IMG/VR virus record: IMGVR_UViG_3300006033_000013
Span: 1 to 36,040 of that record
Origin: a virus
Length of the DNA stretch: 36,040 nt
Reading direction: 5' to 3' (one strand)
The notes under the pieces were generated by a model. The model saw only the letters and a program-made list of their open reading frames with translations, ran no database searches and was not told the origin of the DNA. Each line of letters starts with the position of its first letter. Position 1 is the first letter of the stretch. The position numbers were made by a program, and so were the translations under genes. Positions 1 to 36,040 of the stretch are shown piece after piece.

Positions 1-50
1 ATTGATGTGTGGCAGGGCGGAGACGCTGTTCGGATCATGACGGAGCGCGG
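1..50. repeat. Terminal direct repeat, left copy (circular closure)
   Basis: These 50 bases are identical to 35991-36040. The reading frame that enters at 35853 continues without a break into position 51 and onward, so the repeat most simply reflects a circular or circularly permuted molecule whose linear assembly repeats its first 50 bases. A physical 50-bp terminal repeat cannot be excluded from sequence alone. Confidence 0.95.
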
Positions 51-96
51 GACAAAGCGCTGGTTGCATCCGACTGATATTTTTGAGGTTGAATGA
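1..96 (+). CDS. 3' part of cassette gene K3 (hypothetical, crosses the circle junction)
   Basis: This is the C-terminal part of the gene that starts at 35853. In the circle the frame reads from 35853 through 36040 and then from 51 to the TGA at 94-96, giving 77 residues. Within 1-96 the frame starts at base 1 and ends in DIFEVE. The stop overlaps the ATG of the SSB-like gene at 93 (ATGA). I do not recognise the family. It is the third ORF of the attC-like cassette array, and heptamer ATCGAAC at 96-102, just at its stop, is complementary to GTTCGAT at 35829-35835 where the cassette would begin. Confidence 0.8.
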   Translation: MDVWQGGDAVRIMTERGTKRWLHPTDIFEVE

Positions 97-557
97 TCGA
101 ACAACGTATTAGTATCAACTCAGTTGCGGATAACACCGGAAATTCCGCGTACCACGTAACTGGAAGAAGAAAGGGAAACGAAATAAGCGACGAAACGCAA
201 GAAATGCGATCCGGACAATTCTGGATTCGCGGAACGGTTGAAGATTACGCGGAAATCACACGCGGAAAGTATACGGCAAAGTATCTGAGGGTATTCGTTC
301 CAAACGAGCGAAACCCAAGGTTTCCAGACACTTTCTTTGTAAAGGTTCTTGACAAAGCGGCTGAAAAGCTTACGGCGAAAGTTGGCGACGAAGTAGAGGT
401 TACGTGCTATGTTTCAAGTCGATTGAACAATGCAAACGACGGAGCATGGCTGGATTGCACGCTGGCATATTGCAAGGTATTGAAAGCTGGTGCGCAAACG
501 GAATCGGGCACGCATGAGACCGAGTTGCAACCGGTTGACGATCACACGCCTTTTTAA
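93..557 (+). CDS. Single-stranded DNA-binding protein (OB-fold, acidic tail)
   Basis: 154 residues. The centre (about 43-132) looks like an OB-fold with alternating strands, including GTVEDYAEITRGKYTAK and GDEVEVTCYVSSRL. The C-terminus is DDHTPF, matching the acidic DDxPF-type tip by which bacterial SSB proteins recruit replication partners. It would coat single strands during phage replication or recombination. DUF3127-type phage ssDNA-binding proteins are the other possible family. The start at 93 overlaps the previous stop by ATGA. Met38 at 204 is an alternative start, and the first 37 residues look poorly conserved, perhaps because a cassette boundary lies at 96-102. A small basic or acidic gene pair follows. 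Confidence 0.75.
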   Translation: MIEQRISINSVADNTGNSAYHVTGRRKGNEISDETQEMRSGQFWIRGTVEDYAEITRGKYTAKYLRVFVPNERNPRFPDTFFVKVLDKAAEKLTAKVGDEVEVTCYVSSRLNNANDGAWLDCTLAYCKVLKAGAQTESGTHETELQPVDDHTPF

Positions 558-583
558 CGATCACAAAAAACCAAAGGAGCACA

Positions 584-841
584 ATGAAACCGGAATCAAT
601 GAGAATCGCAATCGACAAAATCAAGGCTGACGTTTGCGCTTTGATCGAGGAAAAGGCCGAAACAATCATGCGCGACATGGGTGATAGTTTCGTGCAACAG
701 GTGGCGGAAGATGAGGATAAGAAGCTCAAGTTTTCGGTGAGCATCAAGGCTGATATTCTTCCGATTGACAACAAGGTTGCGGCGAAAATCACATGGGGTA
801 TCAAGAAGACGGCGACGGCTGAATCACAGATTAACGAGTAA
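584..841 (+). CDS. Conserved small phage protein, unknown function
   Basis: 85 residues, preceded by a clear Shine-Dalgarno AAAGGAG nine bases before the ATG. The N-terminal half (1-45) is predicted helical and charged. The second half contains strand-rich text such as LKFSVSIKADILP followed by KITWGIKKT. It resembles small proteins encoded beside SSB genes in other phages, but I cannot name a function. It lies 26 bp after the SSB-like gene and directly before a 46-residue basic ORF, probably on the same transcript. Confidence 0.7.
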   Translation: MKPESMRIAIDKIKADVCALIEEKAETIMRDMGDSFVQQVAEDEDKKLKFSVSIKADILPIDNKVAAKITWGIKKTATAESQINE

Positions 842-850
842 ATGATAAAC

Positions 851-991
851 ATGAGCGAAGACAACAAACGCAAGCCGCGTGACGGTAGCGGAAAGACACG
901 GTTTAACCGTGAAAAGAGCAAGGGTGAGTCTTGGACGGACTTACGTCAAAAGGCAATTGAAGCTGGAACGTTCAAACCTCGTGTGAAGTAA
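851..991 (+). CDS. Small basic hypothetical protein
   Basis: 46 residues, strongly basic and low in hydrophobic residues (14 K or R, counted by eye), ending FKPRVK. An in-frame ATG at 842 would add MIN and touches the previous stop (TAA at 839-841). Neither start has a strong ribosome site, so translational coupling to the upstream gene is likely. No family recognised. A nucleic-acid-binding role fits the charge but is only a guess. Confidence 0.55.
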   Translation: MSEDNKRKPRDGSGKTRFNREKSKGESWTDLRQKAIEAGTFKPRVK

Positions 992-1002
992 GTAGAAACA
1001 AC

Positions 1003-1033
1003 CGCGCCAGTCCGATTAACGTTGGCTGGCGCG
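1003..1033 (+). other. Intergenic GC hairpin without T-tract
   Basis: CGCGCCAG at 1003-1010 and CTGGCGCG at 1026-1033 form a perfect 8-bp inverted repeat with a 15-base loop. No run of T follows, so it is not a standard intrinsic terminator. It may act in RNA processing or stability before the HNH gene. Confidence 0.6.
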
Positions 1034-1044
1034 TATAACACAAA

Positions 1045-1362
1045 ATGAAAAAACATCCAAACCGCAAGCCATATACGCCTGATAGTCAAATCAAAAACTG
1101 TCTACGTAAGCTATGGCTTTGGTCAAGAGAGAGAAACTCGGCTGTCAAGGCTGTTGGAAACACATGTTGTAAATGCGGTAGAAAGGGCTCTCAGGCAAAA
1201 GGCAAAGAAGTAACGATTGAAGTACACCACATTAACGGGATTGATTGGAGCGGTATTTGCGCATTGATTCGCGACAGGCTCTTACAGACACCTGATAAGC
1301 TGGTTTGCATGTGTAAGGAATGCCACTCGAAAGAGCATGAAGAAAGAAAGGAAACTGAATGA
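1045..1362 (+). CDS. HNH-type zinc-binding protein, probable nuclease
   Basis: 105 residues. Cys41 and Cys44 (CCKC), a central VHHINGIDW (60-68, with His61-His62), then CKEC (90-93) followed by His94 and His98 give the layout of a small HNH or zinc-finger endonuclease of the type common in phages. The motif His-His, Asn and a second CxxCH cluster would hold a metal and the catalytic His. Such proteins nick or cut DNA, sometimes near packaging genes, but here it sits in the early region. The gene ends in an ATGA overlap with the next. No strong Shine-Dalgarno is visible. Activity is inferred from layout only. Confidence 0.65.
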   Translation: MKKHPNRKPYTPDSQIKNCLRKLWLWSRERNSAVKAVGNTCCKCGRKGSQAKGKEVTIEVHHINGIDWSGICALIRDRLLQTPDKLVCMCKECHSKEHEERKETE

Positions 1363-1574
1363 AAATTACGATGACTGAATACGACGGCTGTTTTGCGTTC
1401 GACATGGTTGCTGAAACCGTAACTGACGCTACTTTGTTGGCGCGCTTTTCTATGAACATAACAAATGTTATTGTTTCTGCTAGTTCAATAGCTGATAGAG
1501 ATGGTACTTTTAGAGGATACCTTGTTGCAAAGAAACGTCGTAACCCTAGAATCAGTATTGCGAGGGCAAAATGA
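1359..1574 (+). CDS. Hypothetical protein
   Basis: 71 residues, starting on the ATGA that overlaps the HNH stop and ending with an ATGA overlap into the next gene, so it sits in a translationally coupled string. The C-terminus is basic (KKRRNPRISIARAK). A DGTFRGYLVAKK segment suggests a small beta hairpin. Not recognised. Confidence 0.6.
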   Translation: MKITMTEYDGCFAFDMVAETVTDATLLARFSMNITNVIVSASSIADRDGTFRGYLVAKKRRNPRISIARAK

Positions 1575-1810
1575 AAGTTGACGTTATCACAGTGGCAGAA
1601 GCCACGTTCAAATCTCGCTGGCGCTGGTGGTCAAACTGGATCGACGTGGCTATGTTCGACTACAAATACGAAACGTTCCTCATTCAGATGCGTGTGAGCC
1701 GCACGAACGCAAAAGCGTTCCGGTCAGTATGCGTAACGGGCGACTTTTTCTACAGGCAAGTTACAACGACAACGGTCGGCGACCTCACGCAGATGAAAGG
1801 AAACGCATGA
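1571..1810 (+). CDS. Hypothetical protein
   Basis: 79 residues, rich in Trp (RWRWWSNW at 16-23) and aromatic residues, with an ATGA overlap at both ends. It contains no obvious signal or membrane segment. Not recognised. The overlaps and frame spacing support translation. Confidence 0.6.
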   Translation: MKVDVITVAEATFKSRWRWWSNWIDVAMFDYKYETFLIQMRVSRTNAKAFRSVCVTGDFFYRQVTTTTVGDLTQMKGNA

Positions 1811-2199
1811 ACACGAGCGACAAACAACAGTATCCTCGCCGTGGGCAACTGAGCGAAGACGGTAAGCTTTACACGCACATGGACGGAAGTGTATATGAGA
1901 AGGTTTCGGAAAGTCATGTGTGTAGTGTTGCAGACTGTAAAAAATGCTCAAACGTTCCTTTCTATTGCATGCGCTGGTCACGCATTGAAGTCGCGTACGT
2001 GCAAACGGAAGAAGAGCGCGACGCTTGCGACATGGCGCGAAATATGATCGAACAGTGTAGTTATTTTCGAGGATTGGCAATACCAGCGCACAGTCGGCAA
2101 TCTTGTGGACGTTGTTCATATCTATCAAACAAGGTTTGTCCGGCCCGCGAATACCTAGCCAAGCACGGTTGCTCCGACGCATGGGAGGTTAAGCAATGA
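1807..2199 (+). CDS. Cys-rich hypothetical protein, possible zinc binder
   Basis: 130 residues starting at 1807 on the ATGA overlap. A longer in-frame extension back to 1627 would cross the upstream gene almost completely and is rejected. Cys pairs occur at SVADCKKC, SCGRCSYL and KVCPAREYL, with another Cys near the end (HGCSDAW), suggesting one or two zinc sites. The gene ends in an ATGA overlap with the next ORF. Function unknown. Confidence 0.65.
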   Translation: MNTSDKQQYPRRGQLSEDGKLYTHMDGSVYEKVSESHVCSVADCKKCSNVPFYCMRWSRIEVAYVQTEEERDACDMARNMIEQCSYFRGLAIPAHSRQSCGRCSYLSNKVCPAREYLAKHGCSDAWEVKQ

Positions 2200-2360
2200 T
2201 CGACACAATCACAGACATCGTTAACAGGCATATGGCGAGGCTTCTCACAAACCTTGAAGACGCGCATTGTCCAGACGTGTATCTGCGGGCTGTAAAGTCT
2301 GAAATGCAATGGCTCAGAAAAGACTTGCAAGACGCTGTTGACGCGAAGGCACAAAGGTGA
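2196..2360 (+). CDS. Small hypothetical helical protein
   Basis: 54 residues, starting on an ATGA overlap and ending TGA at 2358-2360. The sequence is almost all helix-forming, with no Gly and only one Pro. It carries the -35 element of the next promoter inside its last codons. Not recognised. Confidence 0.55.
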   Translation: MIDTITDIVNRHMARLLTNLEDAHCPDVYLRAVKSEMQWLRKDLQDAVDAKAQR

Positions 2361-2366
2361 TAATAT
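2338..2366 (+). promoter_or_regulatory. Sigma70-like promoter upstream of the replication initiator
   Basis: TTGACG at 2338-2343 and TAATAT at 2361-2366 are separated by exactly 17 bp, a close match to TTGACA-N17-TATAAT. Transcription would start near 2373 and read a leader of about 165 bases before the initiator gene. Confidence 0.7.
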
Positions 2367-2426
2367 GCTTGTGTCCGATTGGTTCGGATATGGAGTAACT
2401 ACCATGCGTAAAAACAAAACACTTTG

Positions 2427-2495
2427 CCGAATAGCCTTTGAACGTGTCTGCTTTGTTGCAGGCTTTAGTTACCGTTCAAAGGCTTTCGGTTTTTT
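2427..2495 (+). terminator. Long-stem intrinsic terminator or attenuator in the leader of the initiator gene
   Basis: AGCCTTTGAACG at 2433-2444 pairs perfectly with CGTTCAAAGGCT at 2473-2484. CCGAA (2427-2431) and TTCGG (2485-2489) extend the stem with one unpaired T, and TTTTTT follows at 2490-2495. It sits between the promoter at 2338 and the ATG at 2541, so it would stop transcription from both the upstream operon and the new promoter unless relieved. This suggests attenuation control of replication genes. Confidence 0.7.
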
Positions 2496-2540
2496 GCTTT
2501 CGGCATGTGTAATCGCTTGTCAGCAATTGGAAGGACAAGC

Positions 2541-3236
2541 ATGAAATACTACACAGTCACAAACTGGTCTAATTTTCAGCATTACAGGGACAGAAATCCG
2601 CCTTGGATCAAGCTTCATTACGAGCTTCTTTCTAGCCGTGATTGGGTAATGCTGGATGATGCTAGCAGGGTGCTAGCAATTGCTTGCATGTTGGTTGCTA
2701 GCAGGAATGAAGGAAACGTACCAGACGATTCTGAATATCTAAAGCGAGTTGCTTATCTTTCAAAGGCACCTAACTTTAAACCATTGCTAGAGAGCGGTTT
2801 CCTTAAAGTTGCTAGCAATTGCAAGCAGATGCTAGCAGATGCTAGACCAGAGACAGAGACAGAGACAGAGAAAGAGACAGATGGAGAGTTACGTCTTTCG
2901 CCTTCCGGCGAGACTGAAAACGCAAAGCCTAAATCGTTTAAACAGTGGACTATTGAAGACCTCACAAAGTCAGTTGAAGAAAACAACGCCGATAATCTTT
3001 TGACAGAAGCAGAATCTTTAGACTTCATCGGATACTGGACACAAAAGACGGCAACCGGGCGTTTGTTGCTTGCAACTGAAAAGACATTCGACACGCGCAG
3101 GAGGATGCAGACCGCTTTGCGAGTTGTCTACTCGAAACAGCGCGGGCAAGTTGGATCATCCAGCAACACATCCTTCGCAAACCAAAAGCCCGCATCGTTC
3201 TTCAAATCGAAAGAAATGGTTGATTATGGATTCTGA
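2541..3236 (+). CDS. Replication initiation protein (O-like, replisome organiser)
   Basis: 231 residues from ATG 2541, with GGAAGGA upstream. The N-terminus (NWSNFQHYRDRNPPWIKLH at 8-26) is the typical start of phage replication initiators with a winged-helix domain. An acidic repeat TETETEKETD (105-114) links to a C-terminal part with FIGYWTQKTATGR and KTFDTRRRMQTALRVVY, which resembles helicase-loader-binding tails. The helicase loader gene follows with an 11-bp overlap, the classic O-P arrangement. Codons 41 to about 103 contain a cluster of TGCTAGCA palindromes, suggesting the origin lies inside this gene as in lambda. Confidence 0.75.
   Translation: MKYYTVTNWSNFQHYRDRNPPWIKLHYELLSSRDWVMLDDASRVLAIACMLVASRNEGNVPDDSEYLKRVAYLSKAPNFKPLLESGFLKVASNCKQMLADARPETETETEKETDGELRLSPSGETENAKPKSFKQWTIEDLTKSVEENNADNLLTEAESLDFIGYWTQKTATGRLLLATEKTFDTRRRMQTALRVVYSKQRGQVGSSSNTSFANQKPASFFKSKEMVDYGF
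2660..2847. repeat. Iteron-like palindromic octamers (candidate replication origin)
   Basis: Perfect TGCTAGCA occurs at 2660, 2671, 2696, 2810 and 2830 (first bases). Near copies TGCTAGAG at 2785 and TGCTAGAC at 2840 bring the total to seven in 188 bp. Elsewhere I noticed only two perfect copies (3912 and 7781). CTAG-containing palindromes are normally rare, so the density is unlikely to come from protein sequence alone. A purine-rich strand of GAGACA units (2849-2880) follows. Placement inside the initiator gene parallels lambdoid origins. Confidence 0.6.
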
Positions 3237-9324: not shown

Positions 9325-9799
9325 TAAATATGTTTCAACCGAAAATACGCCGTCACTTGATCGGCTTGGTTCGGCATTGGTCGAAAGAGGACGGACTTTC
9401 AGATTCAACGATCACGTTGTAGTTGAAATGTTGATCGGAGTCACTGACGAAAAGAGAAGCGGGCGGCTTGTACAAGTCCGGCGCAATTGCGGACAGTTTG
9501 GTTCAAACGTATACCTAATTCGTTTGCGAGACGGCTCTTTAATGACATTTGAAAATGTGATGATTAGACATGTTAATGACCAGCGTTTTGAACAGTCTTT
9601 TTACAGGGACAACGGAATGATACCTCCAATTGTCGGTGAACAGCCCGTAGATGACACAGACACTGAGCATACCGAATACACAATTGGTGATCGCTGGCCG
9701 GAAACGGGATTCATTGTCGATAGGCCTGTACAACCGGAGACACCTGGATTGTTTGCAGTGGCTATTTCTATGCCTAACACCCGCAATGAGGCGCGGTAG
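9317..9799 (+). CDS. Hypothetical protein ending inside an attC-like element
   Basis: 160 residues. The middle (NDHVVVEMLIGVTDEKRSGRLVQVRRNCGQFGSNVYLIRLRDG) is strand-rich and looks like a small beta-barrel. The last residues NTRNEAR and the stop codon are encoded by the left arm and loop of the repeat at 9772-9826. The gene at 34963 ends in the same way (NTGNEAR), although the two proteins are otherwise unrelated, which points to a shared mobile 3' element rather than homology. The stop TAG lies in the apical loop. Confidence 0.65.
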   Translation: MSDKYVSTENTPSLDRLGSALVERGRTFRFNDHVVVEMLIGVTDEKRSGRLVQVRRNCGQFGSNVYLIRLRDGSLMTFENVMIRHVNDQRFEQSFYRDNGMIPPIVGEQPVDDTDTEHTEYTIGDRWPETGFIVDRPVQPETPGLFAVAISMPNTRNEAR

Positions 9800-9826
9800 T
9801 TCGTCGCCTACAACGATTAATTGGCC
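9772..9826 (+). repeat. attC-like element A (solitary, incomplete right end)
   Basis: GCCTAAC at 9772-9778 fits RYYYAAC. AGGCG (9789-9793) and CGCCT (9805-9809) form the stem, with CGG and TCG inside, loop TAGT (9797-9800) and one unpaired T at 9804. The right end ATTGGCC (9820-9826) lacks the G of GTTRRRY. Its length of 55 bp and internal spacing equal those of elements B and C. It may be a decayed or recombined site. Confidence 0.55.
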
Positions 9827-12933: not shown

Positions 12934-13455
12934 ATGGCAACAGAACTGTCTATTTTTCCCACTTCAATTACAGCCGGTGAAAGCTTCACCGCAACGCTAC
13001 CAGCAACCGTAACAGTAACAGGGCGGACGTGTGTCTATCAGTTCAAGGCCGCTGTTCCTTTCTCGGTTAACTGTTCTGCAAGCGCGACACAATTCACGCT
13101 TTCAGTGTCGGCGGCACAGTCTTTGACTCTAAAGGCTGGCAATATCTATTTCGCGGCTTTTGCAACCACGACAAGCGGCGGTGCTGTTGAGTGCGTTGAT
13201 AGCGGATATCTAACTGTCAACCCTAATCCGCTTGCAACGTCCAGCTATGAGACGGCACTTGCGGCGGTTGAAGCGGCCATTGCGTCGTATGCAACGAATC
13301 CTAATAAGCGCGTTAACGTTGGTGATATCTCAATTGAGTATCGAGACCTTAACGACCTAATTTCTCTGAAAGCCTACTATCAAAGCGAAATCACACGAGA
13401 CTTGACCGGTCGTGGCTCTGGCCCGTTTCGCATTTCTACGAGGTTCGCATGGTAA
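12934..13455 (+). CDS. gpW-like head completion protein with N-terminal Ig-like domain
   Basis: 173 residues. Residues 1-96 form a strand-rich domain (ELSIFPTSITAGESFTATL, then YFAAFATTTSGGAVECVDSG). Residues about 104-155 (TALAAVEAAIASYATNPNKR, then ISIEYRDLNDLISLKAYY) match the small helical gpW/gp16-type head-tail joining fold that lies between terminase and portal in lambda-like phages. The Ig-like extension is common in related phage proteins and may decorate the neck. It overlaps the portal start by 7 bp. Confidence 0.65.
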   Translation: MATELSIFPTSITAGESFTATLPATVTVTGRTCVYQFKAAVPFSVNCSASATQFTLSVSAAQSLTLKAGNIYFAAFATTTSGGAVECVDSGYLTVNPNPLATSSYETALAAVEAAIASYATNPNKRVNVGDISIEYRDLNDLISLKAYYQSEITRDLTGRGSGPFRISTRFAW

Positions 13456-14960
13456 AAAACCCGTTTAAATGGTTTTCGCGCAAATCAAGCGCAAGAGGCC
13501 GGACGATCAACACCGGCAATTATCGCGCATTTGCGGCGGCACAAGTCAACCGCTTGCTTGGGCCTTGGAAATGGGATAACGGGTTTTGTAATGACGACAT
13601 CCGTTCTCAGCTTGTGACGGTTCGGGCACGTTCGCGGGACATGTATAAGAACAGCCCGCATCACAGGCGGTTTGTCAACCTTGTGGCAACCAATGTGGTT
13701 GGAGACGGGTTCACGCTGAAATCTTCTCCTCACGATGGAATGCCGGGAATGCCGAATTACCGTCCTGACAAAATGGCCAGCAAGTTTTTAGAGACGCACT
13801 TCTGGCGTTGGGCAAGCAATCCCGCTTATTGCGATGCTACCGGACGCAAGACGCTTGCGGAGATTGACCGCTTGAACGCTCGTACATGGGCGCGTGACGG
13901 CGAGTATTTCAACCTTTTAGACACGACGGCAAACAATCCTTACGGTTTCGATATCCGTATTATCCGCCCCGACGCGGTTAATGAGCGTTACGAAGGTCGC
14001 CTGTCAAACGGCAATACGATTCGCATGGGCGTAGAGCTTGACGCGGACAGTTTGCGTCCTGTCGCTTACTATCTGCACACGATTAAAGAATACGCTACTT
14101 GCATGGGTGGATATGGGCCTTTGGTGCGCGTTCCTGCTTCGATCAATGGTAGCTATGGAATCATTCATGGTTACACGCAGGAAGATGAAGACCAGACGCG
14201 AGGCATGCCGTTAGGGCACGCCGGACTAACCACATTGAAGATGCTAGAAATGTGGAACGAAACGGAACTTGCGGCGGCGATTGATGAAAATTGCACCGTT
14301 CGTACTTACCATGCACCGGCTGGACGTGAAGGAGAGATTGCTAACCTTTGCGACGTTGAAAATTCAAGCACGGTTGCGGCCATGACTGCTCCGAAAGAGC
14401 AAGGGCAAAGTGAGGTTTTACCGCAAGGATGGGACGTTACAACGCACACACCGCAACACCCTAACCGAGAAACCACGGCGTTTAAAGCTTCGTATCAGCG
14501 CGACTATGCGACGGCTGTAAACTGCGAATACTCTAACCTGTGCAACGATTGGAGCGGTGTAAATTACGGTTCTGTGCGTGCCGGTACACTGTCGGAGCGC
14601 GACATGTGGCGCGTAATGCAACAACAGATGATCGGCAACGCAAAAAGCCCAACGTACCTTGCATGGCTTAAACGGTTTTTGAATGTAGAAATCAGCGGCG
14701 GTTATCCGGCTTCAAAGTACGAGAAGTTTTCAGAACACGAATTTCGTGGTCGTCGTTGGCTTTGGGTTGACCCGCTCAAAGATATTAAGGGTGCAGAAAT
14801 TGCACGTTCTCACGGATGGAAGACAGATCAACAGATTACCGCAGAATTTGACGGCGATTTTGAAGACAACCTAGAGGAAATACGCAGGGCAGACGAAGCA
14901 ACAAAGGGAACTAGCGTAGAGGTAAAAACAAATGAAAAACAAGCAACCGCAACAGCCTGA
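13449..14960 (+). CDS. Portal protein, lambda type
   Basis: 503 residues. RARSRDMYKNSPHHRRFVNLVATNVVGDGF (about 57-86) is the conserved opening of lambda-family portals (Phage_portal_2). Later text, LLDTTANNPYGFDIRIIRPDAVNERYEG and EDQTRGMPLGHAGLTTLKML, agrees with the clip and stem region. Twelve copies would form the ring for DNA entry and tail attachment. The end is charged (EEIRRADEATKGTS). It overlaps the next gene by 29 bp. Confidence 0.9.
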   Translation: MVKNPFKWFSRKSSARGRTINTGNYRAFAAAQVNRLLGPWKWDNGFCNDDIRSQLVTVRARSRDMYKNSPHHRRFVNLVATNVVGDGFTLKSSPHDGMPGMPNYRPDKMASKFLETHFWRWASNPAYCDATGRKTLAEIDRLNARTWARDGEYFNLLDTTANNPYGFDIRIIRPDAVNERYEGRLSNGNTIRMGVELDADSLRPVAYYLHTIKEYATCMGGYGPLVRVPASINGSYGIIHGYTQEDEDQTRGMPLGHAGLTTLKMLEMWNETELAAAIDENCTVRTYHAPAGREGEIANLCDVENSSTVAAMTAPKEQGQSEVLPQGWDVTTHTPQHPNRETTAFKASYQRDYATAVNCEYSNLCNDWSGVNYGSVRAGTLSERDMWRVMQQQMIGNAKSPTYLAWLKRFLNVEISGGYPASKYEKFSEHEFRGRRWLWVDPLKDIKGAEIARSHGWKTDQQITAEFDGDFEDNLEEIRRADEATKGTSVEVKTNEKQATATA

Positions 14961-16758
14961 AAATAAGCGCGATTTGAACGGACTTTCTTTCCGCGAATCG
15001 GTAATCGAAGTGCGCGAAGAGGAAGGTAAATCGCCTGTCGTGCGCATGAGCGTTTCCAGCGAAACGCCCGTTTTGACGTATATACGCATGGGCGATAACT
15101 GGATGTATGCATATGAGATTCTCGATCACAATGAATCAAGCATTGACCGTTCGCGCTGTGCTGACGGTTTAGTGATTCAAGATACGCATTACGGCGACCA
15201 GATCGGGCTTATTCGCGCTCCGATGATCGTTGATAAAAAGCTTGGCGGAATTGTTGAATTTTGTGCTGGCGAACGGGCTAAAGAAATTGGCTTGGACGCG
15301 GCAAACGGACTCAGGAGAAACACAAGCGTGGGATATCGCTGTGACCCTGAGAAGTACGTGGTTGAAGGACAAAAAGACGGCTATCCGGTGGTACGGTCGT
15401 TGTCTTGGTGTCCTCACGAAGCATCGTTTGTCAATGTCCCTGCTGATACTTCTGTCGGTGTCGGTCGTGCGCTAAACCTAAACGAAAACAAAAACCCTCA
15501 GAACGAGGGAGAAGGAAAAAGAATCATGACTCCTAAAGAAATGGCAGAACTGTTTAAACGTGCCGCGCAGTACGGTATCGAAGCCGACGCGGTGCAGGCG
15601 TTGATTGATAAGGATCAGGGCCGCGCAGAGCTTGACGCGCTTATTGTCGAGCGTCAGGCGTCTCAGATTGTCGAGTTGCGCCAGCCGAAAAAGGAAGACC
15701 CGACGCAGAACAAGCGAGCGCAGGTTGTGACCGCCGCGCCTTCCGCTGTTCCTGAAAAGGAAATGCGGCAGTACAGCGTTAATAACGTCATTCGCTCGAT
15801 TACCGGCGATAACGTTGACATTGGGCGCGAGCGTGAAATCAGCCAGCAGTTGGCGGTCGAGCGTAACAAGCCCGCATCTGGTATCATCATTCCGCATGCC
15901 GTGCTTGCACAGCGCGTTTTGACGGTTGCCGGAACGTCTAGCGCGACGGTTCAGACCACGGTGCAGTCCGGTGACTTCATTGACCTTGTGCGTTCGGCTT
16001 CAATCCTCGGCGACCTCGGCGTTCGCTTTATGCCGGGTATGGTCGGGAATATTGCATACCCGAAGATGACGGGCGGTGCGGTTGGTTACTGGGTTGCCGA
16101 AAACGGAAACATTACCGGAAGCACTCCGACGCTTGGACAGGTCCCAGGAACTCCGCATACGTGCGGGGCGTTGGTTGATTTGTCAAGGCTCATGCTTAAC
16201 CAGAGCACGCCTTCGTCTGAAATGTTCACGCGCAACGAGATTATTGAGCGTCTTGCGCGGACGATTCAGGTTGCGGTGTTTGCCGGAACCGGCGCGGATG
16301 GTCAGCCTAGCGCGATCACTACCGCTACTGGCATTGCAAACCCGTCTGTCACGCAGGGCATCCCGACGTATGCCGAACTACTCGGTTTCCCCGGCACGAT
16401 TATGAACAACAACAGCGCTGGCCGGAATATGAAGTGGGCTATGACCGGCGAGGTTTGGGCGAAGCTGGCGGCGACCGCGACGAACGGCGCTGGTTCGGAG
16501 CTTGCCCTTAACCCGTCTACTCGCCGCATGGCTGGTTACGAGTACGTCGAGCCTTGCTCTGACTTGCCGGATAACTCGCTGTGGTTTGGCGATTGGTCTA
16601 CCGTCATGATTCCGATTTGGGGCAACGGCGTTGACTTGATCGTTGACACGTCTACCCTTTCGGCTTCGGGCGGTCTGCGTCTGGTCGGGTTGCAGGATGT
16701 TGACATCTGCGTCCGCAACGGTAAGGCGTTGGCCTACAACACCTCCGTGACGAGCTAG
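14932..16758 (+). CDS. Fused prohead protease and HK97-fold major capsid protein
   Basis: 608 residues. The N-terminal 190 form an S78-like protease: LDHNESSIDRSRC (His66) and NTSVGYRCDPEKY (Ser132) give the His and Ser of the usual catalytic set. After a linker with MTPKEMAELFKR at 199, residues about 275-608 have the HK97 capsid pattern (GDFIDLVRSASILGDLGVRF, GYWVAENGNITGSTPTLGQV, LVGLQDVDICVRNGKALAY). The fusion is known in some phages. An internal ATG at 15526 behind GAGGGAGAAGGA could give separate capsid subunits. Confidence 0.88.
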   Translation: MKNKQPQQPENKRDLNGLSFRESVIEVREEEGKSPVVRMSVSSETPVLTYIRMGDNWMYAYEILDHNESSIDRSRCADGLVIQDTHYGDQIGLIRAPMIVDKKLGGIVEFCAGERAKEIGLDAANGLRRNTSVGYRCDPEKYVVEGQKDGYPVVRSLSWCPHEASFVNVPADTSVGVGRALNLNENKNPQNEGEGKRIMTPKEMAELFKRAAQYGIEADAVQALIDKDQGRAELDALIVERQASQIVELRQPKKEDPTQNKRAQVVTAAPSAVPEKEMRQYSVNNVIRSITGDNVDIGREREISQQLAVERNKPASGIIIPHAVLAQRVLTVAGTSSATVQTTVQSGDFIDLVRSASILGDLGVRFMPGMVGNIAYPKMTGGAVGYWVAENGNITGSTPTLGQVPGTPHTCGALVDLSRLMLNQSTPSSEMFTRNEIIERLARTIQVAVFAGTGADGQPSAITTATGIANPSVTQGIPTYAELLGFPGTIMNNNSAGRNMKWAMTGEVWAKLAATATNGAGSELALNPSTRRMAGYEYVEPCSDLPDNSLWFGDWSTVMIPIWGNGVDLIVDTSTLSASGGLRLVGLQDVDICVRNGKALAYNTSVTS

Positions 16759-33475: not shown

Positions 33476-34291
33476 ATGAACACAGTAAAATACAACATGC
33501 CATTTGAAGAATACTCGCTTGTTGAAGCTATCAACGCGAGTTCGCTAAAAGCCGGACGCTTGTCTATGAAGCACATGCGCCACGCGATGACAAAGGGCTA
33601 CAAAGAAACGACTCCAGCAATGCAATTCGGAAAGCTTGCGCACGCGGCCATATTGGAACCTCTTACACTCATGCGTGATTGCGTTGTTTGGGACGGTGGC
33701 GCAAAACGAGGCTCCGAGTGGACTAAGTTTCAAAACGAAAACGAGTGCAAAGAGATCGTGACGGCTAACGATCTTTCGCGGTTGCAAATGCTTGTTGCTT
33801 CCGTCCAGTCTAACGCCGATGCACGCGACTTGCTTTCAAACTCTAAGCATGAGGTTTCATGCTTCTTTAATGATTCTGTTTACGGAGCGGCCAAGGCTCG
33901 GCTCGACGGTGTTTGTGATGCTGGCGTAATCGAGGTCAAGACTTGCAACAATCTAGACGAACGGTCTATCGGGAATCAGTTTGTTTCGATGGGTTATGAT
34001 TTGCAGGTAGGCTGGTATCATCATGCCGCTGATGTGTGTGAATTGTGCAAGCGCAAAACCGTTTACATGGTCTATGTAGAAAGCAATGAGCCTTTTGACT
34101 GCGTTGTGTTTACAGTACCTAAACGCACGATCACGAAAGGCTATCAGACGGCTTGCGAGTTGGCTGCACGTTATCGCGAGTGCGAGGCCGCGAACAACTA
34201 TCCCGGCACGCAGGATATAGGCATTCGTGATTTGGCTATGCCCGCATACTACGAAGGCGACGTAGAACTTGATGATGTTATGCCGATGTGA
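33476..34291 (+). CDS. Exonuclease VIII-like PD-(D/E)xK nuclease
   Basis: 271 residues from ATG 33476 (AGGAGAG upstream). FGKLAHAAILEP (51-62), KARLDGV (140-146, Asp144), VIEVKT (151-156, Glu153 and Lys155) and YDLQVGWYH (174-182) are the motifs of phage exonucleases related to RecE and DUF3799. The pattern D, ExK and QxxxY supports a 5'-3' exonuclease for recombination. The next gene may be its annealing or ssDNA-handling partner. A longer frame from 33392 lies inside the previous gene and is rejected. Confidence 0.85.
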   Translation: MNTVKYNMPFEEYSLVEAINASSLKAGRLSMKHMRHAMTKGYKETTPAMQFGKLAHAAILEPLTLMRDCVVWDGGAKRGSEWTKFQNENECKEIVTANDLSRLQMLVASVQSNADARDLLSNSKHEVSCFFNDSVYGAAKARLDGVCDAGVIEVKTCNNLDERSIGNQFVSMGYDLQVGWYHHAADVCELCKRKTVYMVYVESNEPFDCVVFTVPKRTITKGYQTACELAARYRECEAANNYPGTQDIGIRDLAMPAYYEGDVELDDVMPM

Positions 34292-34305
34292 AAGGACAAA
34301 ACGAA

Positions 34306-34941
34306 ATGAACGAAGACAACCTAAGCGATACAATCGCGCCAAAATCAGATCAATTAAACGCAGACGATTTGCTTACCGGCCCAATCACGGTAACAATCGA
34401 AAGGGTCACGCGCAACGAAAGCAAAGAACAGCCGATATCGTTGCACATCGGCAACGGGCGGCAACCTTACAAGCCTTGCAAGTCAATGCGCCGTGTTCTT
34501 ATCGCGGCATTGGGTGAAAAAGGCTCTGCTTGGGTCGGCAAAAGTCTTACACTATACGCAGACACAACCGTTGTGTTTGGCGGCGCGAAAGTTGGCGGTA
34601 TCCGTATCAGCCACGTATCCGGCATCAACGAACCGTTGCGCCTTTTGCTTACGGCAACACGTAGCAAGCGGGCTGAGTATGTTGTTAATCCGCTTGTTGT
34701 TTTGAAGCCGCAATCCGAATCGATAACCGGCACGATTGAAGACGTGATTGTGTTGCAATCGAAGCCGGACGCTGAAAAGGCATGGACAAAGTGGGGCATC
34801 AAGATCAACTGCGAAACGTACGGAACTTTCGACAAGACGCTTGGAGAGGCCGCACTTGCGCTTGTAAAATCGGTTGCGGTTGTTGAATGGAAAGCTGACG
34901 GAAAGCACAAGACGGCGTTGAAGGTTGCGCCGGTGGAGTAA
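34306..34941 (+). CDS. Conserved phage protein next to the exonuclease, unknown role
   Basis: 211 residues with AAAGGA before the ATG. ITVTIERVTRNESKEQPISLHI, PYKPCKSMRRVL, then TLYADTTVVFGGAKVGGIRISHV belong to a family I recall beside phage exonuclease and SSB genes. No catalytic residues stand out. It may bind single-stranded DNA or help annealing, but this is inference from position. It is the last ordinary phage gene before the attC-like cassette block. Confidence 0.6.
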   Translation: MNEDNLSDTIAPKSDQLNADDLLTGPITVTIERVTRNESKEQPISLHIGNGRQPYKPCKSMRRVLIAALGEKGSAWVGKSLTLYADTTVVFGGAKVGGIRISHVSGINEPLRLLLTATRSKRAEYVVNPLVVLKPQSESITGTIEDVIVLQSKPDAEKAWTKWGIKINCETYGTFDKTLGEAALALVKSVAVVEWKADGKHKTALKVAPVE

Positions 34942-34962
34942 CACAGAAAGTGAGTTTTAGGA

Positions 34963-35217
34963 ATGAGTGGAGCGAATGACGATAGCCTCCAGCGCATTGT
35001 TGGGCCGGACGTTTCGCCCACCGATGACGCTGGACGGTGGGAGCGCAGCAAGTCCCCGTGGCACGCTGACGCCTTCCAGCCATATTTCAAGGACCGCGCA
35101 CCGGAGCAGTGCGACCGCAAGACCGGGTGGCTCGAAATCGACTGGTGCGGCAACGCTATCGGGTGGGTGCCCGACGGCACTGTGATAAGGCCGAACACCG
35201 GCAATGAGGCGCGGTAG
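34963..35217 (+). CDS. Cassette gene K0, high-GC hypothetical protein
   Basis: 84 residues. Three 60-base lines counted by hand (34981-35160) give 116 G or C of 180 (64%), against 45-53% for two lines counted in the gene before. The sequence has no recognised domain. The last residues NTGNEAR and the stop codon (TAG at 35215-35217) come from the left arm and loop of attC-like element B. The composition and shared 3' end suggest the gene was brought in from another genome. Its 5' boundary is unclear, since no TTCGGC is found before the ATG. Confidence 0.65.
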   Translation: MSGANDDSLQRIVGPDVSPTDDAGRWERSKSPWHADAFQPYFKDRAPEQCDRKTGWLEIDWCGNAIGWVPDGTVIRPNTGNEAR

Positions 35218-35244
35218 TCCGTCGCCTAGGGCGATTTGTTAGGC
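35190..35244 (+). repeat. attC-like element B (end of K0, start of K1)
   Basis: Left end GCCGAAC (35190-35196), right end GTTAGGC (35238-35244). Central stem AGGCG (35207-35211) with CGCCT (35223-35227) and inner CGG with CCG, loop TAGT (35215-35218), one unpaired T at 35222. Total 55 bp. The expected crossover lies between G35238 and TT. Confidence 0.65.
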
Positions 35245-35264
35245 GTTTTTAGTTGGAGGTTGAA

Positions 35265-35519
35265 ATGATCGACTACACAAAACAGACTCCTGAAACCGAC
35301 TTCTTCATGAACCGGATTAACGGAGACGAAATAGACCTTGAAATGGTACGCGCTGCGATGCATGACATGGAGGTTGAACGCGACTATGCACGGGCGCAGT
35401 CGGCCGCATGGCGTCGCTTGGCGCACGATGCGGCAACTGTTCTTTCCGCACATGCGGTTGGCCACGCCACACAACGTGTAATCGAAGAGGCCGAAGACGC
35501 TGAATCCGTCTTCGCCTAA
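35265..35519 (+). CDS. Cassette gene K1, hypothetical protein
   Basis: 84 residues from ATG 35265 behind TTGGAGGTTGAA, a strong Shine-Dalgarno shared with K3 and unlike the usual GAAAGG of this phage. The protein is charged and helical (MVRAAMHDMEVERDYARAQS, AWRRLAHDAATVLSA) with no known domain. The stop TAA (35517-35519) lies inside the left end of element C. The cassette would span 35239-35562. Unknown function. Confidence 0.65.
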   Translation: MIDYTKQTPETDFFMNRINGDEIDLEMVRAAMHDMEVERDYARAQSAAWRRLAHDAATVLSAHAVGHATQRVIEEAEDAESVFA

Positions 35520-35568
35520 CACGGGAGCCCAGCCACGGTAGTCCGTTGGCTGTGGCGATTGGTTAGAG
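35514..35568 (+). repeat. attC-like element C (end of K1, start of K2)
   Basis: Left end GCCTAAC (35514-35520), right end GTTAGAG (35562-35568). Stem AGCCA (35531-35535) with TGGCT (35547-35551), inner CGG with CCG, loop TAGT (35539-35542), unpaired T at 35546. 55 bp. CGCCTAAC at its left end is the exact complement of GTTAGGCG at the start of K1. Confidence 0.75.
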
Positions 35569-35593
35569 CATTTTTTTGAAAGGAGATGATGAA

Positions 35594-35794
35594 ATGATCA
35601 AGTGGACAATGACAAGAAATGGACAAAGCAAGTCTCTCAAAGACGTTCCGTATACGGCACAGATTGAGAGTGTGAATGGGCGCGTATGCGTAGGCATGTG
35701 CGAGAACTGTTCAAAGCCTATCTTAGAAGGCCATAAACACCATCACGATACAGAGGGCATTATGTGGCATGCTCGGTGTCGCTCTAACACGTGA
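35594..35794 (+). CDS. Cassette gene K2, small zinc-finger-like protein
   Basis: 66 residues from ATG 35594 behind AAAGGAGATGATGAA. CENC (about 37-40), then GHKHHHDTEG, and HARC near the end form a Cys2 and His or Cys cluster like small treble-clef phage proteins. A TTG-initiated longer form from 35576 is less likely. The stop TGA (35792-35794) is inside element D. The cassette would span 35563-35829. Confidence 0.65.
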   Translation: MIKWTMTRNGQSKSLKDVPYTAQIESVNGRVCVGMCENCSKPILEGHKHHHDTEGIMWHARCRSNT

Positions 35795-35835
35795 GGCCAG
35801 CCACGTATCACGTTGGCTGCGCCGATTTGTTCGAT
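35782..35835 (+). repeat. attC-like element D (end of K2, start of K3)
   Basis: Left end CTCTAAC (35782-35788), right end GTTCGAT (35829-35835). Stem AGCCA (35799-35803) with TGGCT (35814-35818), inner CG with CG, loop TATCA (35806-35810), unpaired T at 35813. 54 bp. GCTCTAAC at 35781-35788 is the exact complement of GTTAGAGC at the start of K2. Confidence 0.75.
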
Positions 35836-35852: not shown

Positions 35853-36040
35853 ATGCTGGAACAATGGAAGAAACTTGACAGAGAATTACAGTGCCAGAAA
35901 ACACTGATGGCTGCATGCCTGCGGTGCTTGGTGGGCAAAAAGATGATTTACCGCAAGGGCAATATGTGCGTAGCCAAACCGTGCATTGTGATTGATGTGT
36001 GGCAGGGCGGAGACGCTGTTCGGATCATGACGGAGCGCGG
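35853..36040 (+). CDS. 5' part of cassette gene K3 (continues at base 51 in the circle)
   Basis: ATG 35853 behind ATTGGAGGTTGAA, the same strong ribosome site as K1. The frame is open to the end of the window and continues through bases 51-96. The full protein is 77 residues: MLEQWKKLDRELQCQKTLMA, then MIYRKGNMCVAKPCIVIDVW, strand-rich at the end. It has three scattered cysteines before residue 50 and no known domain. The cassette starts after G35829 (TTCGATG). Confidence 0.75.
   Translation, partial: MLEQWKKLDRELQCQKTLMAACLRCLVGKKMIYRKGNMCVAKPCIVIDVWQGGDAVRIMTER
35991..36040. repeat. Terminal direct repeat, right copy
   Basis: Exact copy of positions 1-50. The base before it (35990, g) is the last unique base, giving a closed length of 35,990 bp. 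Confidence 0.95.

Follow-up and report, generated by a model that had tools for sequence, protein, structure and literature searches.

The window analysed here, the complete 36,040-nt viral record IMGVR_UViG_3300006033_000013, very probably holds an integron cassette array without intI (CALIN) in the circular 36-kb genome of a tailed phage, with two complete, inverted cassettes and an old attC site (element A) elsewhere. Three attC sites (B, C, and D) were found to delimit these cassettes (324 bp with an 84-aa ORF and 268 bp with a 66-aa ORF), and all three point opposite to the cassette genes, with each attC located 5' of its own ORF. Comparison with other arrays demonstrated that cassettes are inverted as a rule in the sampled viral arrays but only exceptionally in bacterial arrays, and that many phages carry a complete version, with canonical intI/attI/attC geometry and cassette genes that are read towards and together with intI. 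The window array represents a new member of the phage CALINs and an instance of an apparently widespread inverted phage integron. Coordinates are given in Table 1.

Table 1. Features of the window and, in the last two rows, of two viral contigs with complete integrons (positions refer to the respective contigs). CM, covariance model.
Feature	Position	Strand	Evidence and remarks
Element A, isolated decayed attC	9772..9826	-	Intact end GCCTAAC, other end ATTGGCC; CM R1/R2
Portal and major head protein genes	13449..16758	+	phrog_21 E 4e-73; phrog_617 E 2e-82; mark record as tailed phage
Exonuclease VIII-like phage gene, upstream of array	33476..34291	+	phrog_412 E 6e-34; DUF3799 E 3e-13
phrog_11517 family gene, unknown function, adjoins array	34288..34941	+	phrog_11517 E 3e-51
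Small ORF, 84 aa, stops inside attC B	34963..35217	+	C-terminus ...PNTGNEAR-stop; C-terminal peptide matches ORF ending in element A
attC site B, own site of cassette 1	35190..35244 (55 nt)	-	Minus-strand reading GCCTAAC...GTTCGGC; CM R1/R2, fold
Cassette 1, attC B + RBS + ORF	35196..35519 (324 bp)		7/7 complementary ends; inferred cut points
Cassette 1 ORF, 84 aa, GGAGG RBS	35265..35519	+	Antiparallel to attC B; codon log-odds
attC site C, own site of cassette 2	35514..35568 (55 nt)	-	Minus-strand reading CTCTAAC...GTTAGGC; CM R1/R2, fold
Cassette 2, attC C + RBS + ORF	35520..35787 (268 bp)		7/7 complementary ends
Cassette 2 ORF, 66 aa, CxxC...HxxxC zinc-ribbon-like	35594..35794	+	Antiparallel to attC C; codon log-odds
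attC site D, distal cassette boundary unproven	35782..35835 (54 nt)	-	Minus-strand reading ATCGAAC...GTTAGAG; CM R1/R2
77-aa ORF across circle junction to ~95	35853..36040	+	Possible third cassette (own site D); weak, uncounted
G067 = IMGVR_UViG_3300037311_000474 (L279/L327/L342)	intI 10-942		Complete phage integron, attI junction, at least 6 attC, inverted cassettes
G002 = IMGVR_UViG_3300033076_001413 (L084/L221)	445-2595		Complete inverted integron in viral contig

Phage Setting of the Array

Direct repeats of 50 bp at both termini of the record indicated a closed circular genome of ~35,990 bp. Tailed-phage genes detected in the window included those for a terminase (phrog_38), a portal protein (phrog_21), a major head protein (phrog_617), a helicase, and a DNA methyltransferase. 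Past the circle junction, the right neighbour of the array is possibly an SSB-like gene, for which only a weak match was obtained. Neither a terminase-based search nor a search of viral contigs with the exact core pattern of site B recovered a near relative of the window phage, and cassette turnover in this phage could therefore not be seen. The array and its ORFs also had no match in INPHARED (blastn, tblastn). A strong intergenic hairpin (GCGCCAG...CTGGCGC) without attC core boxes was observed at positions 1000-1035 of the window.

attC Sites in the Window

A first-pass annotation of this DNA had described B, C, and D as attC-like sites of 55, 55, and 54 bp with a stem, a loop, and a single, identically placed unpaired T, and both the coordinates and the layout were confirmed. 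The three sites, packed into 646 bp, each form a single short stem capped by a loop of 3-4 nt, and the unpaired T occupies the same position in the 3' arm (plus strand). Outer heptamers on the plus strand were GCCGAAC/GTTAGGC (B), GCCTAAC/GTTAGAG (C), and CTCTAAC/GTTCGAT (D). Relative to the core boxes RYYYAAC/GTTRRRY, the AAC and GTT triplets were intact in all three sites, with one or two deviations at degenerate positions. Those from GTTRRRY concern the right core GTTCGAT of D and the last base of GTTAGAG in C; the earlier remark that some right ends deviate from this box was confirmed. DNA-fold z-scores of B, C, and D ranged from -2.4 to -3.3, with values of -2.6 (plus strand) and -3.1 (minus strand) for site B. 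An Rfam search of the window gave no match.

Element A, which the first-pass annotation had also listed, was likewise found, with a core box that fails at one end (ATTGGCC) and without any fold excess (z 0). It was 87% identical to B across 47 nt. The ORFs that terminate in A (9772-9799) and B (35190-35217) share an attC-encoded C-terminus, PNT(R/G)NEAR-stop.

The sites were evaluated with two covariance models. Model R1 was trained on nine attC sites of class-1 integrons (from plasmid records; loops shortened in two) and three attC sites of phage TJE1, contained zero window sequence, and was run on the window with filters off. Its top four matches in the 36 kb were B (27.5 bits, E 9e-5), C (25.0 bits, E 4e-4), A (24.6 bits, E 5e-4), and D (17.8 bits, E 0.026), every one on the minus strand; D is weak in this unbiased model. 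B, C, and D thereby fulfilled the criterion of a match to an attC covariance model, here one built for this analysis without window sequence. The broader model R2 also excluded the window sites and yielded scores of 48.1 bits (E 2e-9) for C, 40.5 bits (E 1e-7) for D, 35.5 bits for B, and 19 bits for A, but is less independent than R1 because some of its sites had been retrieved with a window-derived pattern. The best plus-strand score of R2 was 9.8, versus 35-48 bits for B, C, and D on the minus strand. A further match at 34936-35005 (15.4 bits in R1, 12.9 bits in R2), where the phrog_11517 gene borders on the following ORF, was weak and was left out of the count.

Chained Ends of Two Complete Cassettes

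In integron cassettes, the opening bases TTRRRY are complementary to RYYYAA at the end of the same cassette. The unit between B and C starts with GTTAGGC and ends with GCCTAAC, an exact 7/7 complement, and the unit between C and D starts with GTTAGAG and ends with CTCTAAC, again 7/7. Pairing inside one site reached only 5/7, versus 7/7 between successive sites. Among 300 Markov shuffles of the window, a single chained pair occurred in one and two pairs in none. Since the end of one site complements the start of the next rather than its own, B, C, and D carry the mark of recombined cassettes. This between-site complementarity, like the minus-strand orientation of the sites, was absent from the first-pass annotation. 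Cut points of cassette 1, AA^C on the plus strand (G^TT on the minus strand), were inferred from general integron knowledge.

Short stems between tandem genes, with stop codons inside them, would also be expected if the elements were transcription terminators or regulatory hairpins that resemble attC by chance. No T-run follows the stems, however, and terminators or chance hairpins do not yield chained cassette ends; together with the independent covariance-model matches and the outcome of the shuffles (0/300), this left virtually no room for such an explanation.

No intI was found in the whole record (no match to TIGR02249), as the first-pass annotation had stated, and the window fails the criterion for a complete integron, intI and attI beside the array. 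The proposed CALIN reading, which requires two or more adjacent attC sites and no intI, was supported by the covariance models, the chained R''/R' boxes, and this very absence. Because the record lacks intI, recombination at the window array has not been demonstrated. The array could be a fossil whose cassettes entered once via an IntI-bearing ancestor and are now immobile. The missing intI, the decay of element A, and the divergent core of D are in line with such a history, which differs from the preferred reading of a CALIN still open to mobilisation solely in its last step. It was nonetheless judged rather unlikely: the B-C and C-D ends are perfectly complementary and the stems intact, and decay has therefore not touched these two cassettes. 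The heptamer ATCGAAC at positions 96-102 is complementary to GTTCGAT of D and shares bases with the stop codon that ends the 77-aa ORF; it might mark where a third cassette joins the phage backbone, for which support is weak.

Orientation of the attC Sites

Extrahelical bases of attC sites are located on the R''-side arm, as was also seen in the class-1 and TJE1 sites. When folded as minus strands, the window sites showed two extrahelical 5'-arm bases in C and D (both A in C) and one in B, and fulfilled the attC criterion of an imperfectly paired hairpin that has a spacer and carries extrahelical bases on its L'' arm. The minus-strand reading thus fitted the extrahelical bases, the spacer AACAAATCGCC, and the model score. 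Both cassette ORFs, as well as the surrounding phage genes, lie on the plus strand. Each cassette therefore has the order attC-RBS-ORF, and the conventional bacterial criterion (ORF parallel to attC, attC 3' of the ORF) is not met. The earlier observation that the sites follow plus-strand ORFs was correct in that stop codons lie inside them (TAG 35215-35217, TAA 35517-35519, and TGA 35792-35794), but the inference that each site ends the preceding ORF did not hold, as each attC is 5' of its own ORF.

A plus-strand layout of RBS, ORF, stop codon, and hairpin does look conventional, and R''/R' chaining is symmetrical and cannot distinguish strands. Ordinary parallel attC sites, with a bulge that happens to lie on the other arm, were consequently considered as an alternative. 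Spacer, both extrahelical bases, and the difference in model score (9.8 versus 35-48 bits) all fitted the minus strand, and further evidence against parallel sites came from cassettes shared between phage contigs and from arrays beside phage intI (see below). Parallel sites in the window were accordingly regarded as very improbable.

Viral and Bacterial Arrays With Similar Sites

Viral contigs were sampled by two attC patterns and one IntI profile. The attC patterns, of which only one was based on the window sites, yielded about two dozen further multi-site viral contigs. Bacterial attC sites of the window type were obtained by scanning a genome collection with the window-derived pattern; of nine confirmed bacterial loci, six were in Verrucomicrobiota, and similar attC sites also occurred in Planctomycetota and Gammaproteobacteria. 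Coding direction was called by simple codon log-odds across the cassette and both flanking sites, unless a CDS was annotated. A count of orientations by longest ORF was superseded by these log-odds and dropped; it was misleading because antiparallel ORFs extend a few bases into the sites.

Antiparallel cassettes outnumbered parallel ones by 80:7 in viral arrays (87 called), versus 2:23 in bacterial arrays (25 called). Counted per contig, the ratios were 25:4 and 0:11, respectively (Fisher p 6e-7). Chaining was 7/7 in 67 of 88 viral cassettes. Site strands assigned by R1 and R2 agreed in the viral arrays, and since R1 was trained on parallel-type sites only, the orientation result is not circular. 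In two deposited phages, MW202573 and Pseudoalteromonas phage H101 (PH101), the antiparallel layout followed from their own CDS annotation. Inversion is not universal, because TJE1 and a few contigs (L297, L289, L286, L380, and L415) have parallel cassettes. The p-values overstate independence, as contigs from the same sample can be related (L313/L317, L354/L356, L348/L349, and L390/L391), and do so further in that G067 was counted in both viral sets (attC patterns and IntI profile). Despite this, the contrast between viral and bacterial orientation is near complete.

When array neighbourhoods were compared, the phrog_11517 gene was common only to the window and L075, a viral contig that had been reached via phrog_11517. 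In L075, the exonuclease and phrog_11517 genes are ordered as in the window and precede five attC sites with chained ends (4/4), with a cargo that differs from that of the window. Two of its cassettes were called parallel; we think that these calls are failures of the codon model, as the ORFs are short and the plus-strand ORFs look genuine on inspection. A second chained attC pair was observed in L075 at 25-349, on the opposite strand and near a divergent HTH gene, which suggests that another array, likewise antiparallel to transcription, lies on the repressor side.

Two units were common to pairs of viral contigs, one of 299 nt with 83% identity (L075/L278) and one of 292 nt with 87% identity (L279/L303). 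Both comprise the attC that lies 5' of the ORF, and both end at the core of the following site (G^TT breakpoint). Since the 5' attC is carried in the common units, and thus moves together with the ORF, these data confirmed the orientation and demonstrated cassette exchange between phage contigs. They also contradicted the possibility, named in the first-pass annotation as a refutation, that related phages have the same hairpins between unrelated genes without recombination. A cassette common to L284 and L285 was set aside as uninformative because all sites there are near identical.

In six Verrucomicrobiota MAGs (L103, L107, L145, L146, L149, and L138), attC sites were of the AACAAATCGCC type and ORFs were parallel where readable; no full-length intI was found in these MAGs. 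Similar sites in Verrucomicrobiota, Planctomycetota, and Gammaproteobacteria, and the metagenomic origin of the record, would be compatible with a bacterial integron fragment misjoined to the phage during assembly. The record, however, closes into a circle, the array is flanked by the exonuclease and phrog_11517 genes on one side and by phage genes of the same strand on the other, ORFs are parallel in bacterial arrays with this attC type, and inverted arrays like that of the window occur in many other phage contigs. A misjoined fragment was hence considered scarcely credible.

Complete Integrons in Viral Contigs

Two attC-bearing viral contigs, G067 and G002, encode an IntI in which the insertion specific to IntI is present and the catalytic residues are intact. 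Their attI-cassette junctions, GTTAGGC in G067 and GTTCGGG in G002, each chain to the first attC. The G067 contig also encodes a primase and a virion structural protein; among the scanned long ORFs of G002, no phage protein match was found (PHROGs).

A profile built from five IntI retrieved 170 IMG/VR viral stretches with IntI relatives (L342-L421); integron integrases of phages look common, not rare. In the best 80 of these 170 stretches, all 171 attC matches were on the strand opposite to intI and 166 of 167 were on its 5' side, which corresponds to canonical integron geometry; an attI junction was found in 48 of 53 phage intI contigs. Within the same 80 stretches, antiparallel cassettes outnumbered parallel ones by 100:11 and antiparallel contigs by 37:2 (39 called). 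As the cassette ORFs are antiparallel to attC and attC is opposite to intI, the ORFs are co-directional with intI. In matched bacterial intI loci, the antiparallel:parallel ratio was 1:31 for cassettes, and 0 of 11 contigs were antiparallel (phage versus bacterial sets, p 5e-21 for cassettes and 2e-9 for contigs). That attC beside phage intI occupies the canonical strand (171/171) while the ORFs are reversed also argues against ordinary parallel sites in the window.

IMG/VR records can contain host flanks. Phage head, packaging, tail, endolysin, or primase proteins were detected in 15 of 16 intI contigs scanned (PHROGs, long ORFs); Pfam portal and terminase models matched few intI contigs, and it was PHROGs that revealed the phage genes. 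Most of the 16 contigs carry phrog_21 and/or phrog_617/phrog_4523, and the window phage has phrog_21 and phrog_617, a portal/head link that is only suggestive because these families are broad. L415, which together with one other contig had parallel cassettes beside intI, is isolate-derived and looks like a chromosomal integron adjoining a prophage.

Relation to Known Integrons and Possible Mechanism

Textbook integrons are bacterial, with cassettes read from a promoter in intI/attI and with cassette and gene in the same direction. Class 1 mobile integrons (plasmids, phage-plasmids) share with the window the attC layout, extrahelical bases, and sites of 55-60 nt, but have parallel ORFs, a promoter Pc in intI, and resistance cargo, all of which are missing from the window. 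Sedentary chromosomal integrons (Vibrio, Xanthomonas, Verrucomicrobiota, and others) share attC structure and chained ends, and the Verrucomicrobiota MAGs even the spacer type; their cassette ORFs run in the attC direction and diverge from intI (31:1), in contrast to the antiparallel, intI-less window. The IMG/VR phage integrons G067 and G002 have inverted cassettes like the window, but their own intI and attI.

The first-pass annotation knew of no precedent for an attC array in such a phage. However, Qi et al. (2023, PMC9892861) had already described 17 CALINs and 3 complete integrons from phage genomes, and a phage-borne array as such is therefore not new. The complete integrons in that study belong to temperate phages; IntI1 recombined five of six phage sites assayed, those of PH101 included, bottom strands performed better than top strands, and antiparallel genes were not mentioned (PMC9892861). 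No report of the antiparallel phage layout was found in the literature searched, with subscription papers and preprints outside the scope of the search. The phage CALINs of TJE1, PH101/H101, P12002L, and MW202573 resemble the window in that their attC arrays lack intI; the phages concerned are virulent or uncharacterised. In MW202573 and H101, attC sites are antiparallel to the annotated genes, as in the window, in contrast to the parallel cassettes of TJE1. Both attC sequences and cargo of published phage CALINs differ from those of the window, and the P12002L sites were not detected by our attC model.

We consider it likely, though with less confidence than for the array itself, that phages evolved their own integron branch, an "inverted integron" with canonical intI/attI/attC, genes co-read with intI from phage promoters, and a largely separate cassette pool of phages, of which the window would be an intI-less member mobilised in trans. 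The coding (plus) strand of the window is inferred to be the attC bottom strand, whose hairpins would fold when single-stranded during replication, transcription, or entry. An IntI recombinase would then be expected to cut between G and TT of the folded sites; it may be supplied in trans by the host, by a co-infecting or resident intI-bearing phage, or by a gene since lost. Cassettes could thereby be gained, removed, or swapped, which remains an inference without recombination data for the window. Inversion would fit cassettes whose expression depends on phage operons, not on an intI/attI promoter: a phage promoter would lie upstream of the entire array, all genes would be co-directional, and intI, where present, would be last in the operon. 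Why phages favour inversion over the bacterial layout is a matter of conjecture.

The textbook rule for cassette and gene is systematically reversed in phages, in dozens of viral contigs and also beside phage-encoded IntI. If this interpretation is correct, phages maintain and trade a cassette pool of their own using integron machinery, phage cassettes would not be expressed from Pc once captured in a bacterial integron, and vice versa, and tools that assume parallel ORFs would misread such arrays. Inverted arrays also permit a direct test of the reason for the coupling between attC strand and gene strand.

Cassette Cargo

A Shine-Dalgarno sequence is located just ahead of the ATG in both cassette ORFs. 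Codon log-odds were 14.2 for the ORF of cassette 1, versus 0.4 for the opposite strand, and 4.9 for that of cassette 2, whose opposite strand has no competing ORF of at least 25 aa. The first ORF belongs to no known family, with no Pfam match, only a weak PHROG match, and no phage tblastn match, and no significant relative of the second was found in Pfam, PHROG, and INPHARED searches. The cargo probably consists of small accessory phage genes, with methyltransferases in some relatives. In G002, the protein of the first cassette may be a Mom- or acetyltransferase-like modification enzyme. DNA methyltransferases were recurrent as cargo of phage cassettes (L089/L090, L223, L298, and TJE1).
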